This document shows positions 11,699 through 62,710 of a stretch of 64,000 nucleotides of DNA, in pieces. The notes below the pieces were generated by a model that worked only from the letters and a program-made list of their open reading frames with translations, had not been told where the DNA came from and ran no database searches. Numbering within the stretch: position 1 is the first letter of the stretch; every line of letters starts with the position of its first letter. Source of the stretch: Bacteroidales bacterium 6E (lineage in GTDB: Bacteria > Bacteroidota > Bacteroidia > Bacteroidales > Prolixibacteraceae). The stretch lies in assembly GCA_001270045.2 (NCBI GenBank), contig DF970667.1, forward strand, positions 209,975-273,974. Direction: 5' to 3'. The position numbers were made by a program, and so were the translations under genes.

Positions 11699-11997
11699 TG
11701 AAACTTGTTTTCACGGAACAATCTCTTAATAGCCTTGAAGAAACCCTTAATTTTATCGCCCCAAAAGTCACCTATGCAAAACTGATAGAAATCAGAAATG
11801 AAATCTTGGATGCAGCAGACACTTTGCTGTTACATCCATTAAAAGGAGGGAAAGAGCCTTATTTAGAACATTTGGAGCTAGGTCACCGCCGCTTAATTGT
11901 CGGCCATTAAAAAATAATATACCGGGTTACGAACGAAGAAATTTATATTACAGACATATTTGATTCAAGGCAAGATCCTGCAAAAATGAGAGGATGA
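11698..11997 (+). pseudogene. RelE/ParE toxin with an in-frame stop at codon 71
   Basis: The frame opens at the ATG overlapping the antitoxin stop and encodes the ParE fold (FTEQSLNSLEETLNFI, HPLKGGKEPYLEHLELGHRRLIVGH). It meets TAA at 11908-11910, but the same frame then continues for 28 more codons that are exactly the ParE C-terminus, KIIYRVTNEEIYITDIFDSR, to a TGA at 11995-11997. In ParE proteins the position of the stop is normally Tyr (GHYKIIYRV), so TAT or TAC to TAA is a single-base change. The truncated 70-residue protein loses the last two strands, which usually contain residues needed for toxicity. It is probably inactive unless the stop is read through or is a sequencing error. 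Confidence 0.8.
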
Positions 11998-12072
11998 CAT
12001 CTTTGCGTTGAGGTCCTCTTCGGAAAGGATGACATCTTTTCGTTGAGGTCCTCTTCGGAAAAGATGTCATCC
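11991..12072. repeat. REP-like repeat cluster (core GGATGACATC)
   Basis: Two near-identical 35-bp units begin with GGATGACATCTTT at 11992 and 12027, and an inverted core ends at 12072. The second unit and the inverted core form a 14-bp perfect stem (12027-12040 with 12059-12072). The first unit overlaps the distal TGA of the toxin frame. It belongs to the GGATGNCATCC family seen at four other places in the window. Confidence 0.75.
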
Positions 12073-12078
12073 TTCAAA

Positions 12079-47122: not shown

Positions 47123-47131
47123 CGCAGAGAT

Positions 47132-47153
47132 ACGCCCAAATTGGGCGTCTTTT
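47132..47153 (+). terminator. Terminator after tRNA-Thr
   Basis: ACGCCCAA (47132-47139) pairs with TTGGGCGT (47141-47148; outer six pairs usable) and is followed by CTTTT. Confidence 0.65.
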
Positions 47154-47249
47154 CTATCAATGCGTCACCGCACCATACGAAAATACATACACTTTAGGCT
47201 GTGACCCCTACGATTATTAGCCAACTAATAGTATATAAGTCTCGCAAAG

Positions 47250-48234: not shown

Positions 48235-49608
48235 ATGGAAAAGAACCTCAAACTTTTGGATAGAAATCGGGTAGATTTGATATCCGGACAATCGAAAACG
48301 GGAACTAGATGGTTAAAAATCGTTATCCTCACCGTGTTTTCCTGTTGCTTTGCAATATTGCAATCATACGCCCAGAAATTTCAGGTATACAATACCGAAA
48401 ATTCAGGATTGCCCCATGACCAGGTACTTTCGGTTGCGATTGATGCGCAAGGCAATAAATGGTTTGGCACGTTTTACGGAGAGGTGGTTAAATTTGATGA
48501 TGTCAATTGGACCGTATACAACAAACTCAATTCAAAAATTCCGGGTGATTATAATATAACCACGATTGCGATTGATGCACAAGACAATAAATGGTTTGGA
48601 GCTTCCTATTCCCCAACCCTTAAATCAGGCGGAGGATTAATAAAATTCGACAATGCCAGCTGGACACTTTATAATGTCTCCAACTCTGGTCTGCCGCACA
48701 ATACGGTAACGGATATTGCCATTGATGAATCAGGCAATAAGTGGATCAGCACTTTTGGTGGTGGCGTAGCCAAATTTGAGAGCACCGGCTGGACGGTGTA
48801 TAATAGGTCGAATTCGGATTTGCCCGATAATAATGTACGTTCAATTGCAATCGATGACCAAGGCAATAAATGGTTTTCAACCATGACGGCAATTGCAAAA
48901 TATGACGGTAACGCATGGACCATATATAAATATTCGACCTCCATAATTCCTTATTATAATGATAATGGTGGAATTATATCCATCACATTGGATGACCATG
49001 GCAATAAATGGTTCGGAATAAGTCCTGACTGGGATTCCGGTCATCCGGGAGGAGTGGTAAAATTTGACGATGAAAACTGGACAGTTTATACCAGATCAAA
49101 TTCGGATTTGCCATTCGGGGTTTTTTCTGCCGCAACCGACAAAACGGGTGATATCTGGTTTGCGACATCCTATTGGGCAGAAGGTGCACTTGTAAAATAC
49201 AATGGATCAGACTGGACAGTTTATGACAGTGAAAATTCGGGTTTGCCTAATGACTGGATCAACTCAGTAGTCATTGATGAGCAAGGGTCCAAGTGGTTTG
49301 TTACCGGGAATTCTGGTGTGGTAAAATTTAATGAAAATGCAATTACTACTGACATTGACAATAATATTCAAGCTGCCCAGGATGGGTTCAATGTATATCC
49401 CAATCCGGCAAATGACCAGATTTCCATAAAAGGATTGAAACCTGGAACCATGAGTATATTTAATTCTTCAGGAGAGGTTGTTAAAAACTCTGAAGTGAAG
49501 GAAGTTTCAGTCGATATCGATGTTTCCGATTTGCCGGAAGGAATGTATTTCATTCGGTTTACGACAGAGGACAATGTAATGGTAAAAAAGATTATCAAGG
49601 GAAATTAA
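48235..49608 (+). CDS. T9SS-exported beta-propeller repeat protein
   Basis: The 457-residue protein has an N-terminal membrane segment (about residues 26-46, KIVILTVFSCCFAILQSYA), six or seven propeller blades of the two-component-regulator type with the recurring DxxGNKWFGT signature (for example AIDAQGNKWFGT, AIDESGNKWIST, AIDDQGNKWFST), and a C-terminal T9SS sorting domain (about 383-457, NVYPNPANDQIS ... LPEGMYFIRFT). The kinase parts of hybrid sensors are absent, so it is a surface or secreted protein of unknown ligand. It lies directly before the repeat array. Confidence 0.8.
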   Translation: MEKNLKLLDRNRVDLISGQSKTGTRWLKIVILTVFSCCFAILQSYAQKFQVYNTENSGLPHDQVLSVAIDAQGNKWFGTFYGEVVKFDDVNWTVYNKLNSKIPGDYNITTIAIDAQDNKWFGASYSPTLKSGGGLIKFDNASWTLYNVSNSGLPHNTVTDIAIDESGNKWISTFGGGVAKFESTGWTVYNRSNSDLPDNNVRSIAIDDQGNKWFSTMTAIAKYDGNAWTIYKYSTSIIPYYNDNGGIISITLDDHGNKWFGISPDWDSGHPGGVVKFDDENWTVYTRSNSDLPFGVFSAATDKTGDIWFATSYWAEGALVKYNGSDWTVYDSENSGLPNDWINSVVIDEQGSKWFVTGNSGVVKFNENAITTDIDNNIQAAQDGFNVYPNPANDQISIKGLKPGTMSIFNSSGEVVKNSEVKEVSVDIDVSDLPEGMYFIRFTTEDNVMVKKIIKGN

Positions 49609-49699: not shown

Positions 49700-50340
49700 A
49701 CCGGGATGACATGAAATCCCGTAGGGTAGACATGATTGTAACACACCATCGTAAGGAAACCCACCCCCTTTAAAGGATGCCATCTTTTCCGCAGACAGAT
49801 GCAACGAGAAGATGGCATCCTCTGTTGATTCCCGTAGGGAAGACATGATTGTAACACATCATCGTAAGAAACCTGTCAGATTCCCGTAGGGAAGACATGA
49901 TTGTATCATCGTAAGAAACCTGTCAGATTCCCGTAGGGAAGACACGATTGCAGCATCGTAAGGAAACCAACCCCCCGTTAAAGGATGCCATCTTTTCCGC
50001 AGACAGATGCAACGAGAAGATGGCATCCTCAGCTTGATTCCGGACGCCCCTATAGACATCGAGGGCAAGCGGAAGACATGATTGTAACAACATCATCGCC
50101 GGGATGACATGAAATCCCTTAGTGAAGACACGATTGTAACATCGTCAGAAACCTGTCAGATTCCCTTAGGAAGACACGATTATATCATCGTAAGAAACCT
50201 GTCTGATTCCCGTAGGGAATACACGATTGTAACACACCAACGTAAGGAAACCCACCCCCCTTTAAAGGATGCCATCTTTTCCGCAGACAGATGCAACGAG
50301 AAGATGGCATCCTCAGCTTAGATGACATCCTCAGCTACCC
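49700..50340. repeat. Composite intergenic repeat array with REP-like hairpins
   Basis: The 1008 bp between 49609 and 50616 hold no gene. About eight copies of a 45-52 bp unit (GATTCCCGTAGGGAAGACA followed by TGATTGTA and CATCGTAAGAAACC) occur in one orientation at 49719, 49831, 49884, 49930, 50070, 50118, 50163 and 50208. Three of them end in an almost identical 48-bp hairpin at 49774-49821, 49982-50029 and 50266-50313, whose arms (GGATGCCATCTTTTC) pair over 16 bp with one wobble around a 16-nt loop. Small open frames here are fortuitous. The 276 bp after 50340 are AT-rich and contain the 11-bp repeats listed separately. Confidence 0.85.
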
Positions 50341-50616: not shown

Positions 50617-51225
50617 ATGTCTATAGTTAAAGGCGGAATTACGGGTACACTCTCCGGGCGAATCGGGAGTGTGGTTGCGGTAACACGTGGTAACACAACT
50701 TACCTGCGATCATTGCCCACGCGAAAAAAGGGTTCGGGTACTGAAAATCAGATCCGTTCAAGAAAACGATTCGCCATCATAGTCAAATTTTGCAAAGGGT
50801 TCAAGGAAAATGTCATCGTTCCCATCTGGAACCTTTTGCCCGGTAATGCCTGCGGATATGCCTTGTTTCTGGGAGCCAACGGCAGCGCTTTCGACAGTAT
50901 GGGAAACCTCATTGAGCTGTCGATGCTCACGTTCTCAAATGGCAATCTCCCGCCGGCACTCCAGGTGAAGCCGGTCAGGAAGGAGGGCAACCTTGAGGTC
51001 AGCTGGTTCAATGACCCGAATATGGCAAGAACCCGACTGAAAGATGAACTCTGGTACATGGCCGTTGTGGGCGACAAATTCAACGGTCCTTTCCAATCCG
51101 GACTGACCAGGGGAATGAAAGGAGGAGTCATTACACTTGCAGATCCTGCCACCCGTGGAATTTACCTCTTCTTTGCGGCACCCGACCGAAAGGATTTCTC
51201 GCCCGACAAGTACGTGGAAATCTAG
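50617..51225 (+). CDS. DUF6266 family protein
   Basis: The 202-residue protein begins with KGGITGTLSGRIGSVVAVTRGNTTYLRSLP, the diagnostic N-terminus of DUF6266 (a short Gly-rich start, then a basic region), and its later part has repeats of WYMAVVGDKFNGPF-like beta strands. Members are known only from Bacteroidota, often in multiple copies near repeats, phage or T9SS genes, and have no established function. No signal peptide. It lies between the repeat array and the split transposase. Confidence 0.75.
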   Translation: MSIVKGGITGTLSGRIGSVVAVTRGNTTYLRSLPTRKKGSGTENQIRSRKRFAIIVKFCKGFKENVIVPIWNLLPGNACGYALFLGANGSAFDSMGNLIELSMLTFSNGNLPPALQVKPVRKEGNLEVSWFNDPNMARTRLKDELWYMAVVGDKFNGPFQSGLTRGMKGGVITLADPATRGIYLFFAAPDRKDFSPDKYVEI

Positions 51226-52005: not shown

Positions 52006-52312
52006 ATGAGCGAGAAATATAATAACAAATACCGCATAACTTCTGCCAGGTTGCCTCAATGGGATTATGGCAACAGTGCCACCTATTTTGTAACCATATG
52101 TACCAAAAACAGAGAATCCTATTTTGGAAACATTGACCAAGGAGTAATGCAATTATCGCCACTTGGAGATATAGCCTTGAAATTCTGGCTGGAAATGCCT
52201 GCCCATTTCCCATTTTTAACGCTGGATGCATTTGTGATCATGCCCAACCATGTTCATGGAATAATCGTAATTGACAAAATACATGCACCGACCAATGGTT
52301 CAATGCACCCTG

Positions 52313-52341
52313 TAGAGGCTGTCTCAAAAGGGCAGCCTCTT
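52313..52341. repeat. Left terminal inverted repeat of the IS1182 element
   Basis: TAGAGGCTGTCTCAAAAG begins the element, and CAGCCTCT (52334-52341) completes an 8-bp stem-loop with the AGAGGCTG at the end. It can act as a transcriptional terminator. Confidence 0.85.
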
Positions 52342-52425
52342 TAATTTGTTGACAACCAACATGTTAATGTTAGCAACTTGTCTTTAAATATCTCATTATC
52401 AGCCCAATAATGATTATATTTAAGC

Positions 52426-53955
52426 ATGAGAACAAAACAAGTGAAATTCAAACCATACAACCAAGGCCAGTTGATGGTTTTACCACCCAGCTTTGAGGAT
52501 CTGATACCCTCCACCCACCCCGTGCGTGTGGTAAATCAGGTGATTGACAAGATAAACCTGAACCCTCTGATGGCTACGTATAAAGGGGGCGGCACCAGCA
52601 GTTATCACCCGAGAATGCTGCTTAAAGTACTGGTATATGGCTATTTGTGCAACTTGTATTCTTCGCGCAAAATAGAAGCTGCCCTGCAGGAGAACATTCA
52701 TTTCATGTGGCTCAGTGCAATGGAGAAACCGGATCACAATACCATAAACCGCTTTCGCAGTGAACGCATGAAGGAAGTGATCCAAGAGGTGTTCAGCCAG
52801 GTTGTCCTGATGTTGGTCGACTCCGGACACATTGATCTTCAGAGAGTATATACGGACGGGACCAAGATAGAGGCAAACGCCAATCGTTACACCTTTGTTT
52901 GGGGGAATAGCATAAAGAACAATAAACAGCGGATCAAGGAACAGCTTGAGGAGTTGTGGGCATATACACAGGAGATTGCTTCAGAAGAGTTGAAAGATAC
53001 GGCACCCGTGAACTTCACATCGATTAATCCGGAAACGGTTCGACAGACGATTGAACAAATAGACCAGGCTCTAAAAGATAAACCGGCAGATGAAAAGGTA
53101 AAGCAGAAAGTTAAATATGCCAAGAAGAACTGGCCCGACAAGCTGGAAGAATACCAGGAAAAGGAGAAGATTTTAAAGGAAAGGAACAGTTTTTCCAAAA
53201 CCGATCCCGATGCCACTTTCATGCGTATGAAAGAGGACCATATGCAAAATGGACAGCTAAAACCCGGATATAATGTTCAGATCAGCACCAACAAACAATT
53301 TATAGGCAACTACTCCATCCACCAGAGCACAACGGATACGACAACCCTACGTAGTCACCTGGTTTCCTTTGAGAAACTCTATGGTTTTATGCCCGAAGAA
53401 TTGACTGCCGATGCTGGTTATGGTTCACAAGAGAACTATGAGTTTTTAGAAAACAATGGGATAGAAGGCTATGTAAAGGACAACTATTTTGACAAGACCC
53501 AACATGGGAAGGATGATCTGAAAAGGGAGTTTCATCCCGACAATCTTTTCTATAACAAATCGCTTGACTGTTACTATTGTCCAATGGCTCAGCCAATGGT
53601 ATTCATCGGGTACGAAACAAAAATTACCAAGACAGGTTATCGGGTAACCCTGTCAAGATACCAGGCCCAAAACTGTGAAGGATGTCCTCTTCATGGCAGG
53701 TGCCACACCAGCAAGGAAAACAGGATTATAGAAGTGAGCCACAGGGGCAATGAGCTTAGGAACAAAGCCAGAGAGAGATTACGGAGTGAAAAAGGGATAA
53801 ACCACAGAAAGCAAAGGCCTGTTGATGTCGAACCTGTCTTTGGCATAATAAAGCACAACCGTGGATTCAAAAGATTTATGCTCCGTGGCCTGAACAAGGT
53901 TGAAATTGAGTTTGGATTGCTGGCTATTGCCCATAATCTTAAGAAGATTGCATAA
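52426..53955 (+). CDS. IS1182-family transposase
   Basis: The 509-residue transposase has the N-terminal region of the family (PFxxGQLMVLPPSFEDLIPSTHPVRVVNQVIDKI), ARxLLKVLVYGY..NLYSSRKIE, and the DDE catalytic triad: D in RVYTDGTKIEANAN, D in LTADAGYGSQENY and E in PVDVEPVFGIIKHNRGF. The three ends are well spaced for a functional RNase H fold. The frame is intact. A Cys-rich segment (CYYCPMAQ ... CEGCPLHGRCH) matches the family's zinc-binding insertion. Confidence 0.95.
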   Translation: MRTKQVKFKPYNQGQLMVLPPSFEDLIPSTHPVRVVNQVIDKINLNPLMATYKGGGTSSYHPRMLLKVLVYGYLCNLYSSRKIEAALQENIHFMWLSAMEKPDHNTINRFRSERMKEVIQEVFSQVVLMLVDSGHIDLQRVYTDGTKIEANANRYTFVWGNSIKNNKQRIKEQLEELWAYTQEIASEELKDTAPVNFTSINPETVRQTIEQIDQALKDKPADEKVKQKVKYAKKNWPDKLEEYQEKEKILKERNSFSKTDPDATFMRMKEDHMQNGQLKPGYNVQISTNKQFIGNYSIHQSTTDTTTLRSHLVSFEKLYGFMPEELTADAGYGSQENYEFLENNGIEGYVKDNYFDKTQHGKDDLKREFHPDNLFYNKSLDCYYCPMAQPMVFIGYETKITKTGYRVTLSRYQAQNCEGCPLHGRCHTSKENRIIEVSHRGNELRNKARERLRSEKGINHRKQRPVDVEPVFGIIKHNRGFKRFMLRGLNKVEIEFGLLAIAHNLKKIA

Positions 53956-54104
53956 CCCAAAATGGGGAAAAAAGACCAAAAATCAACTGATTTAAGCCAA
54001 AATAAGCCTTAAAAGGACCAATAAGGAAGAATCTCGAGCAAAAGATGTAGTCGAAAGGGAAAACTGATCCGATTGGATCAAAAATGACTCATCGAAAAAT
54101 AAAA

Positions 54105-54135
54105 AGAGGCTGACCCGCTTTTGGGACAGCCTCTA
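54105..54135. repeat. Right terminal inverted repeat of the IS1182 element
   Basis: The inverse of the left end, reading TAGAGGCTGTCCCAAAAG from 54135 on the minus strand; AGAGGCTG (54107-54114) pairs with CAGCCTCT for a terminal hairpin. Confidence 0.85.
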
Positions 54136-54732
54136 CCAAATTGGGCGTCTCTACGGCATCATCCACCTATGCGGCATCACAAAAATGGAAACCAGCAACC
54201 TTGGGTGTTGTCATAAACCAATACAAACGAATGGTTACCATCCATGCAAGGAAAATTGCAGCCGGGTATGCATGGCAATCGCGTTTTCACGATCATATTA
54301 TCAGGAACTATGAATCGTATCTGAAAATCCGGAACTATATCTTATACAATCCCATGAATTGGCCAAATGACTCGTTAAACCAAACTATTGAATAATCTGT
54401 ACCACTATCTGCTGCAAAAACATTTCATGTCAATTCATGGATAATTCCCGAAGGCAAATTAGTGTAATTCGAGGGTAAATGGTGATTTTCCCTCCGATGG
54501 GAATACAATGTTTTTGCGGGAAAAAATTGTGCAGGTGCAATCCATCAACATCAATTCGGGAATGAATTGTGGCTGCGCGATTTATCGCGAAGGTTTGGTC
54601 TTCAGCTGTTTTCTGTGTTTTCCGTGGTGAGAAAAACGTTGCGGGTTGCGGGTTACGATGGTGCGAGGCACTTTGGTCTAAAGATTATCATTATTTATAT
54701 CCATTCTAAAAATCATCATTTCCCGAAATCCC

Positions 54733-61719: not shown

Positions 61720-62619
61720 ATGAAAGCCAACAGCCGTACCAGTGAGATAAGGAACATCACCCTAATCGGATCAGTGGTTAACCTGGTGCTGACCATCGGG
61801 AAGGTGATCGCCGGGTTTGTCGGACACAGTTCGGCCATGATTGCCGACGGTATACACTCCCTTTCCGACCTGGCCACCGATGTGATCGTGATCGTGTTCG
61901 TAAAGATTTCGGGCAAGGAGAAAGACGAAACCCATCACTACGGACATGGCAAGTTCGAGACCTTTGCCACCATGATCATCAGTTTTGCGTTGCTCATCGT
62001 GGGTATCGGTATTGGTTGGACAAGCGCCGAAAAGATCTATAATTCGCTGAACGGGGAATTAATTGACAAGCCCGGATTGATAGCCCTTTATGCGGCATTG
62101 ATATCCATTGTCAGCAAGGAAGCCCTTTTCTGGTATACAAAGATAGAAGGGAAGAGGCTGAACAGCCAGGCCATGATCGCCAACGCATGGCACCATCGTT
62201 CCGATGCCTTTTCGTCAATAGGAACCGCATTGGGCATATCGGGAGCCATCATGCTGGGCGAGAAATGGCGCATCCTCGACCCACTGGCAGGAGTCATCGT
62301 CAGCTTCTTCATCCTGAAGGTGGCGTGGGACATTGCCAAGCCGAGCATCGATGAACTGCTTGACCGCTCTCTTCCCGAAAGCACCCAGAAGGAAATTGAA
62401 CAAATCATCACCGATACGAATGGCGTCAAGAGTTTTCACGGACTGCGAACCCGCAAAATCGGCGACCATTACTCGGTCGAAATGCACATCCAGGTCGACC
62501 GCCACCTGACGGTCGAGGTATCGCACCAAATGGCCACTGATATTGAGAACACCCTGCGGCGAAAATTTGGCGCCAATACACATGTGGTGGTGCACATTGA
62601 GCCCTTTAAGGGTTCTTAG
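61720..62619 (+). CDS. Cation diffusion facilitator (CDF) metal exporter
   Basis: The 299-residue antiporter exports divalent metal such as zinc or iron against protons. It has six membrane helices (about residues 10-205) and the metal-binding HD/HD sites: HSSAMIADGIHSLSDLATD (helix 2), HHYGHGKFE in the loop, and HHRSDAFSS (helix 5). The cytoplasmic C-terminal domain (about 210-299) has the dimer fold with HGLRTRKIGDHYSVEMHIQVD. The TAG stop overlaps the first REP-like core. The TolC-family gene starts 165 bp downstream on the same strand. Confidence 0.93.
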   Translation: MKANSRTSEIRNITLIGSVVNLVLTIGKVIAGFVGHSSAMIADGIHSLSDLATDVIVIVFVKISGKEKDETHHYGHGKFETFATMIISFALLIVGIGIGWTSAEKIYNSLNGELIDKPGLIALYAALISIVSKEALFWYTKIEGKRLNSQAMIANAWHHRSDAFSSIGTALGISGAIMLGEKWRILDPLAGVIVSFFILKVAWDIAKPSIDELLDRSLPESTQKEIEQIITDTNGVKSFHGLRTRKIGDHYSVEMHIQVDRHLTVEVSHQMATDIENTLRRKFGANTHVVVHIEPFKGS

Positions 62620-62710
62620 GATGACATCCTTTAAAATCGAAGAGGATGTCATCCTTTAAGATTATCGAGGATGACATCCTCTAAAATTAAAAGGGATGTC
62701 ATCCTCATTA
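62617..62710. repeat. Two REP-like hairpins between CDF and TolC-family genes
   Basis: Four cores at 62619, 62644, 62669 and 62694 alternate GGATGACATCC and GGATGTCATCC, forming two stem-loops with 11-bp stems. The first core overlaps the TAG of the CDF gene. They separate the two genes and may end or pause transcription. Confidence 0.75.

Follow-up and report, generated by a model that had tools for sequence, protein, structure and literature searches.

A REP-like repeat family in Bacteroidales bacterium 6E with a probable partner in a subclass 1.2 TnpA transposase

In REPtrons, or RAYT-REP pairs (TnpAREP), a Y1 transposase gene is flanked by inverted hairpin repeats, and copies of these repeats occur elsewhere in the genome. 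Members of the IS200/IS605 family such as IS608 and ISDra2 also use a single-strand transposase that recognizes a hairpin, as outlined in the cited part of PMC8266576. Two further groups are described in the parts of Quentin et al. (2018, PMC6006769) drawn on here. RAYTs of subclass 2.4 carry double-foot REPs inside the gene, and TnpA proteins of subclass 1.2, found mostly in Bacteroidetes and Cyanobacteria, are given a Y---Q--HH signature and have no REP in Table 1 of that paper. The REP search outlined in the same parts accepted only sequences with GTAG or GTGG on the 5′ side of a basal stem of 7 base pairs or more, so units with a 5-bp stem would escape it.

Here we examine an array of short hairpin units in Bacteroidales bacterium 6E that had been predicted to be the REP family of a nearby split RAYT gene, left stranded when an insertion sequence broke that gene. 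Our analysis indicates that these CCCGTAGGG units do constitute a REP-like family, and that their partner is probably not the split RAYT; the likely partner is a 153-amino-acid HUH/Y1 transposase of subclass 1.2 encoded on contig C10. Relative to REPtrons, the unit has a stem of only 5 bp, lacks a GTAG 5′ foot, carries a conserved 3′ tail and forms long head-to-tail arrays. Searches of openly licensed PMC papers turned up neither an account of these mini-hairpins nor a REP assigned to subclass 1.2, and of six unit strings a single one occurs in that literature, in four papers that are unrelated by title.

Composition of the array and anatomy of the unit

The window, by which we mean the whole 64,000-nucleotide stretch that was analysed, holds the array at positions 49700-50340 (+). 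It is flanked by a gene whose product has a C-terminal secretion-sorting domain (48235-49608) and by a short gene (50617-51225) that matches no Pfam family. The array is a composite of mini-hairpin units and 48-bp hairpins. Its predicted make-up was confirmed, in that the 48-bp hairpin is present in three identical copies and the unit in eight copies that share one orientation. All eight unit tails, identified with at most one substitution, are on the + strand at spacings of 46-134, and TRF reports periods of 47 and 46 bp. The predicted number of about eight copies therefore holds for the tails, but a perfect 5-bp stem is kept by only four of them.

49716-49740, + strand: unit 1, ATCCC-GTA-GGGTA-GACATGATTGTA, 3/5 pairs
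49774-49821, no strand assigned: 48-bp hairpin copy 1, AGGATGNCATCYT arms, separate family
49829-49853, + strand: unit 2, TTCCC-GTA-GGGAA-GACATGATTGTA, 5/5 pairs
49881-49905, + strand: unit 3, stem as in unit 2, 5/5 pairs
49928-49952, + strand: unit 4, stem as in unit 2, 5/5 pairs
49982-50029, no strand assigned: 48-bp hairpin copy 2, identical to copy 1
50062-50086, + strand: unit 5, tail only, stem absent, 0/5 pairs
50114-50138, + strand: unit 6, decayed stem, 3/5 pairs
50160-50184, + strand: unit 7, decayed stem, 2/5 pairs
50207-50231, + strand: unit 8, TTCCC-GTA-GGGAA, 5/5 pairs
50266-50313, no strand assigned: 48-bp hairpin copy 3, identical to copy 1

The unit follows the formula [5-bp stem]-GTA-[5-bp stem]-GACA-YGATTRTA. 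A genome-wide count, which had been proposed along with the original prediction, returned 89 matches to the unit core with at most three mismatches (85 forward and 4 reverse) and 65 to the 48-bp hairpin pattern, overlapping matches being counted in both cases; the same patterns read backwards gave no match in this genome. A second set was anchored on the tail, with GACAYGATTRTA and one substitution allowed, and yielded 101 sites in the window and 19 other stretches of the genome. When these sites are scored for a 5-bp stem closed by a 3-nt loop, 84% of cells are paired and 66 of the 101 stems are perfect, with GTA as the loop bases at 64 sites. Perfect stems include the compensatory versions ACCCC/GGGGT, TTCCC/GGGAA, ATCCC/GGGAT, ACCCT/AGGGT and ACCTC/GAGGT, the first of which occurs 27 times over all loops and 16 times with the GTA loop. 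The version differs by array, being mostly ACCCC in the array at the C10 gene and TTCCC in the window. Thus the anatomy of the unit, a covarying 5-bp stem with a 3-nt loop, a 4-nt spacer and a conserved tail, is directly supported.

One alternative is a passive array, in which a tandem repeat between genes was amplified by slippage or recombination and no enzyme acts on it now. This would fit the decayed stems in four of the eight window units and the identity of the three 48-bp hairpins, and the duplication of blocks is suggested by repeat periods of greater length, which are 113 and 134 in the window and about 114 on C9. We nonetheless regard a passive array as improbable, because compensatory stem changes accompany a constant tail both within and between genomes, which points to selection on the hairpin, and because the units cluster at TnpA genes in many genomes (see below).

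The GTAG within the unit had been taken for the foot that is typical of REPs in other bacteria. This reading was not sustained, since GTA is the loop of the covarying hairpin and the following G is the first base of its 3′ arm. A GT[AG]G foot 5′ of the stem, as in canonical GTAG-type REPs, is lacking in the unit, and a relaxed search for such feet within 300 nt found them at 16 of 96 TnpA loci and at 4 of 53 distant control sites. The basal stem also falls short of the canonical minimum of 7 base pairs, 5 bp being the length that was scored and found. The more general proposition did stand, namely that of a REP-like unit with links to a transposase of the HUH/Y1 type.

We also considered whether the unit forms a stable structure by itself and rejected this candidate, because six single-unit segments fold scarcely better than their shuffled counterparts (z -0.18 to -1.56). 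When copy 1 of the 48-bp hairpin is folded as DNA, its stability greatly exceeds that of shuffled versions (z -4.64, reached by 0 of 200). This hairpin is present in 10 of 199 genomes, with 65 matches in the genome studied here, 3 in G004, which belongs to the same genus, and 1-3 in each of eight genomes of genus g10; none was found in the other 189. Given this distribution, the possibility that the 48-bp hairpin is served by the enzyme of the unit was rejected, and we treat the hairpin as a separate family that was caught up in the array.

Another explanation is that the hairpins are host signals at 3′ ends, either terminators or mRNA stabilizers, and that TnpA genes just happen to be located among them. 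Locations of 35 sites of the 48-bp type were compiled from the window and fetched stretches of the genome using rough ORF calls. Eleven start within 30 nt of the 3′ end of a gene, and in six of eight g10 loci the hairpin lies between convergent genes; yet 20 of the 35 sites are between tandem genes, 4 are between divergent genes and 6 fall inside ORF calls. Moreover, this evidence concerns the 48-bp family, whereas the mini-hairpin flanks TnpA genes on both sides, including upstream of the start codon. We therefore hold it very unlikely that 3′-end signalling accounts for the units, and a 3′-end role for the 48-bp hairpin is itself a guess. At L146, L148 and L149, all from genus g10, a hairpin of the 48-bp type is found about 20 nt past the stop codon between convergent genes, a placement that suggests a two-way transcription end signal.

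Rfam searches of the window returned two tRNAs only. Small arrays of a AGGATGNCATCCT palindrome are also present in the window at 11991-12073 and 62618-62705, with periods of 35 and 25 bp.

The split RAYT gene beside the array

The gene that was originally assigned to the units as their partner is indeed close by and is indeed broken by an insertion sequence, here one with a DDE transposase. Its start, at 52006, is 1.67 kb away from the array, and the six unit matches of the window array lie 1.7-2.3 kb from the gene.

52006-52314, + strand: split RAYT, N-terminal part, with MPNHVHG motif, resembling subclass 2.4
52315-54133, + strand: insertion sequence with inverted ends GAGGCTGTC/GACAGCCTC and a DDE transposase at 52426-53955
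54139-54154, + strand: half of a GTAGAGACGCCC...GGGCGTCTCTAC double-foot palindrome, retained within the split RAYT
54141-54395, + strand: split RAYT, C-terminal part (open frame), with a weak NF047646 match

No Pfam match was found for either part of the split gene, and both match NF047646 weakly (E 3e-6 and 8e-8), with matches too weak to reach the cut-off of that model. Because RAYT-type genes here are missed by PF01797, NF047646 and a protein query were used to find them. The 29 loci of relatives include 23 with a full gene, and 6 have less than 600 nt on one side. Motifs and the palindrome inside the gene, rather than a tree, suggest that the split RAYT resembles subclass 2.4, and the in-gene double-foot REPs described for that subclass fit both this gene and its relatives. 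A long palindrome with GTAG or GTAA feet is located within the gene in 20 of the 29 relatives, 15 of which have the strict form GTAGAGAC...GTCTC[TA]AC; of the 20 palindromes, three are variants and one, that of L209, is unrelated in sequence. Long footed palindromes occur within 400 nt of 6 of the 29 RAYT loci, and the corresponding numbers for TnpA loci are 1 of 96 in the gene and 5 of 96 within 400 nt (2 of 43 for distant controls). The split gene itself retains AATTGGGCGTCTCTAC, half of such a palindrome, next to where the insertion ends on its right side (54139-54154), and C24 carries two complete GTAGAGACGCCC...GGGCGTCTCTAC palindromes. The palindrome of subclass 2.4 (GTAGAGACGC...GCGTCTCTAC) differs from the unit in both sequence and structure.

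These observations bear on the original assignment of the units to the split RAYT as its REP family, which we now consider improbable. The proximity of the gene to the array favors this assignment, as does an association between the presence of the unit and that of RAYT genes over 199 genomes (see below). However, RAYT relatives typically carry the long palindromes described above, and a CCC-NNN-GGG core is found within 1 kb of only 1 of 29. By eye, no other genome among the matches listed has a unit within 2 kb of a RAYT, and a rough estimate based on about 15 arrays and three RAYT-like genes puts the chance of such closeness at about 3%. Mini-hairpins occur within 150 nt of 14 of the 29 RAYT loci (on both sides of 1), which is above background.

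Further RAYT-like matches are present at C3:282254 (L012) and at C5:172702 (L011), the latter with an internal stop, and no unit match is listed on C3 or C5. Proteins encoded at window positions 50617-51225 and at L011 positions 456-1133 have similar N termini (MSIVKGGITGTLSGRIGSVVAV and MTVIKGGKPGSLSGAMGNIVVV), and each is near a RAYT-like gene (on C2 and C5, respectively). A hairpin that follows tRNA-Thr at 47124-47160 in the window (ACGCCCAAATTGGGCGT) has a core in common with the RAYT double-foot palindrome.

The C10 transposase and the flanks of its relatives

At E ≤ 0.001, PF01797 matches the genome only once, at C10:36178-36522, in a gene for an IS200-like protein of 153 amino acids that scores 75.6 bits with NF033573 (cut-off 55). 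Its motifs include YISNQEQHH and the HUH sequence DHVH, and on motifs rather than a tree we assign it to subclass 1.2. In addition to these signatures, the protein resembles that subclass, as characterized in the cited parts of PMC6006769, in its WQ motif, its length of about 150 amino acids and its low copy number. An alignment of 36 sequences, this one included, shows no variation at residues H55, H57, W95, Q96, Y115, Q119, H122 and H123. The nearest solved structures by sequence are those of IS608 and ISDra2 (E 8e-6 to 6e-5), but the C10 TnpA differs from IS200/IS605 elements in that the hairpins at its flanks are oppositely oriented and the gene is present in one copy; instead of the several near-identical element copies that define such elements, this genome yields just one TnpA match, and relatives yield up to 11.

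The array at 49700-50340 had been described as the densest here. Among the arrays found in the genome, the densest is instead the one at the C10 TnpA gene, which is on a different contig from the window; 36 of the 89 unit matches fall in an interval that reaches from 1632 bp upstream of this gene to 438 bp downstream of it. If matches were independently placed, 0.08 would be expected within 1.7 kb, although this assumption fails because matches sit in arrays. TRF counts a 25-bp unit 54 times at this gene, which makes this array the largest among those examined.

Relatives of the C10 protein were gathered by a contig scan (80 loci) and a search of 199 genomes (30 loci, one being the gene itself), which gave 110 loci, and 96 remained after dereplication, in which residues were compared position by position without alignment. 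All 96 are near relatives of one protein, mainly from Bacteroidota. The Y---Q--HH signature is present in 108 of the 110 loci and H.H in all 110. Hairpins with a 5-bp stem and a loop of 3-4 nt are found within 150 nt of the gene at 92 of the 96 loci, including that on C10, and their covariation distinguishes these relatives from subclass 1.2 as published in the parts cited. At 58 loci the hairpins are on both sides, an arrangement like that of REPtrons, in which tnpA is flanked by inverted hairpin repeats.

Close to the TnpA gene, over the first 120 nt, there are 7-10 hairpins per kb, compared with 0.06-0.7 in shuffled sequences; the number drops to 0.9 per kb between 0.8 and 1.5 kb away and to 0.6-0.8 between 2 and 5 kb. 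On either side of the gene, hairpins are most frequent about 10-20 and 60-75 nt from its end, and GTA and GAA are the most common loops among + strand hairpins 5′ of the gene and among - strand hairpins 3′ of it. Sites chosen by their tails and blind to the hairpin have a full 5-bp stem at spacer 4 and loop 3 in 72 of 164 cases and at loop 4 in 19, whereas unrelated registers give a full stem in at most 5 of 164. Requiring an exact tail, again without regard to the stem, leaves 65 distinct sites, of which 43 form all five pairs at the fixed position with a loop of 3 or 4 nt, using 12 distinct stem sequences. Over the 65 sites, 237 of 325 cells are paired, a number that none of 1000 shuffles reached (165.5 ± 6.8); when each locus contributes a single site, the count is 140 of 195 cells, versus 97.3 in shuffles (maximum 113). 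The exact tail is present at only 39 of the 96 loci, however, and 22 of the 65 sites lack a perfect stem. At 45-75 nt, hairpin and tail occur together on both sides of the gene at 12 of 96 loci and on a single side at 26, and 58 loci have no such unit there.

The CCC-NNN-GGG core occurs within 1 kb of 60 of the 96 TnpA loci, as opposed to 1 of 29 RAYT loci and 0 of 41 distant controls. Together with the concentration of units at the C10 gene, this suggests that the split RAYT was probably the wrong choice of partner. If the C10 enzyme serves the unit family, then the family is also not stranded in this genome, as had been supposed.

Proposed action and occurrence across genomes

By analogy with IS608 and TnpAREP, the TnpA may recognize the mini-hairpin that folds when the DNA is single-stranded, cleave it close to the tail and paste units beside the tails of existing units, by which head-to-tail arrays would grow. 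Tandem duplication could then amplify composites, including those that contain the unrelated 48-bp hairpin, and the window array would represent a dispersed, partly decayed branch of the CCCGTAGGG unit family. We see about even prospects for a broader proposal, namely that transposases of subclass 1.2 constitute, throughout the phylum Bacteroidota, a system in its own right, wherein a minimal 13-nt hairpin with freely covarying stem and fixed 3′ tail is recognized, spread and stacked head to tail while enzyme and stem co-evolve. Should the pairing of unit and TnpA hold, a transposase subclass described as having no REP would have a cognate DNA repeat, and one kind of GC-rich repeat found between genes in Bacteroidota would be accounted for. 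The system would also provide a substrate of about 25 nt for studying how single-strand transposases recognize hairpins of changing sequence and how arrays arise.

Co-occurrence was counted by hand from listed rows. TnpA matches are present in 150 of 199 genomes and the window-type unit in 36, the genome studied here included in both. TnpA is found in 31 of the 36 genomes with the unit and in 119 of the 163 others (p 0.13), and RAYT in 26 of 36 versus 75 of 163 (p 0.005). Pairing by genome-level co-occurrence therefore does not favor TnpA over RAYT, whereas local linkage does. The association with RAYT either favors the original assignment or reflects genomes that gather both. The reversed control matches once in each of 9 genomes, so single unit matches may be due to chance.

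It had been proposed that the RAYT pairing would fail if the repeats were absent from RAYT-bearing relatives or abundant in genomes lacking a RAYT, and some of each was seen: the unit is absent from 75 of 101 genomes with a RAYT match, and G035 has unit-like matches without one. That genome, which is 99% complete, carries 10 matches of the CCCGAAGGGATGACATRATT type and none to the TnpA, RAYT or REP_Tyr_transpos queries, and its unit-like matches count against a TnpA partner as well.

A sister unit is present in 21 of 392 Bacteroidota genomes, including the one studied here, and its control matches none. TnpA accompanies it in 17 of these 21 genomes compared with 168 of the 371 others (p 0.0015); among the matches listed, G269, G326, G411 and G536 have sister-unit matches without a TnpA match. 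Also among the matches listed, 18 of 64 sister-unit matches lie within 1 kb of a TnpA gene, where about 0.2 would be expected. Window-type matches within 2 kb of TnpA occur in G105, G073, G050, G097, G071 and G028 as well.
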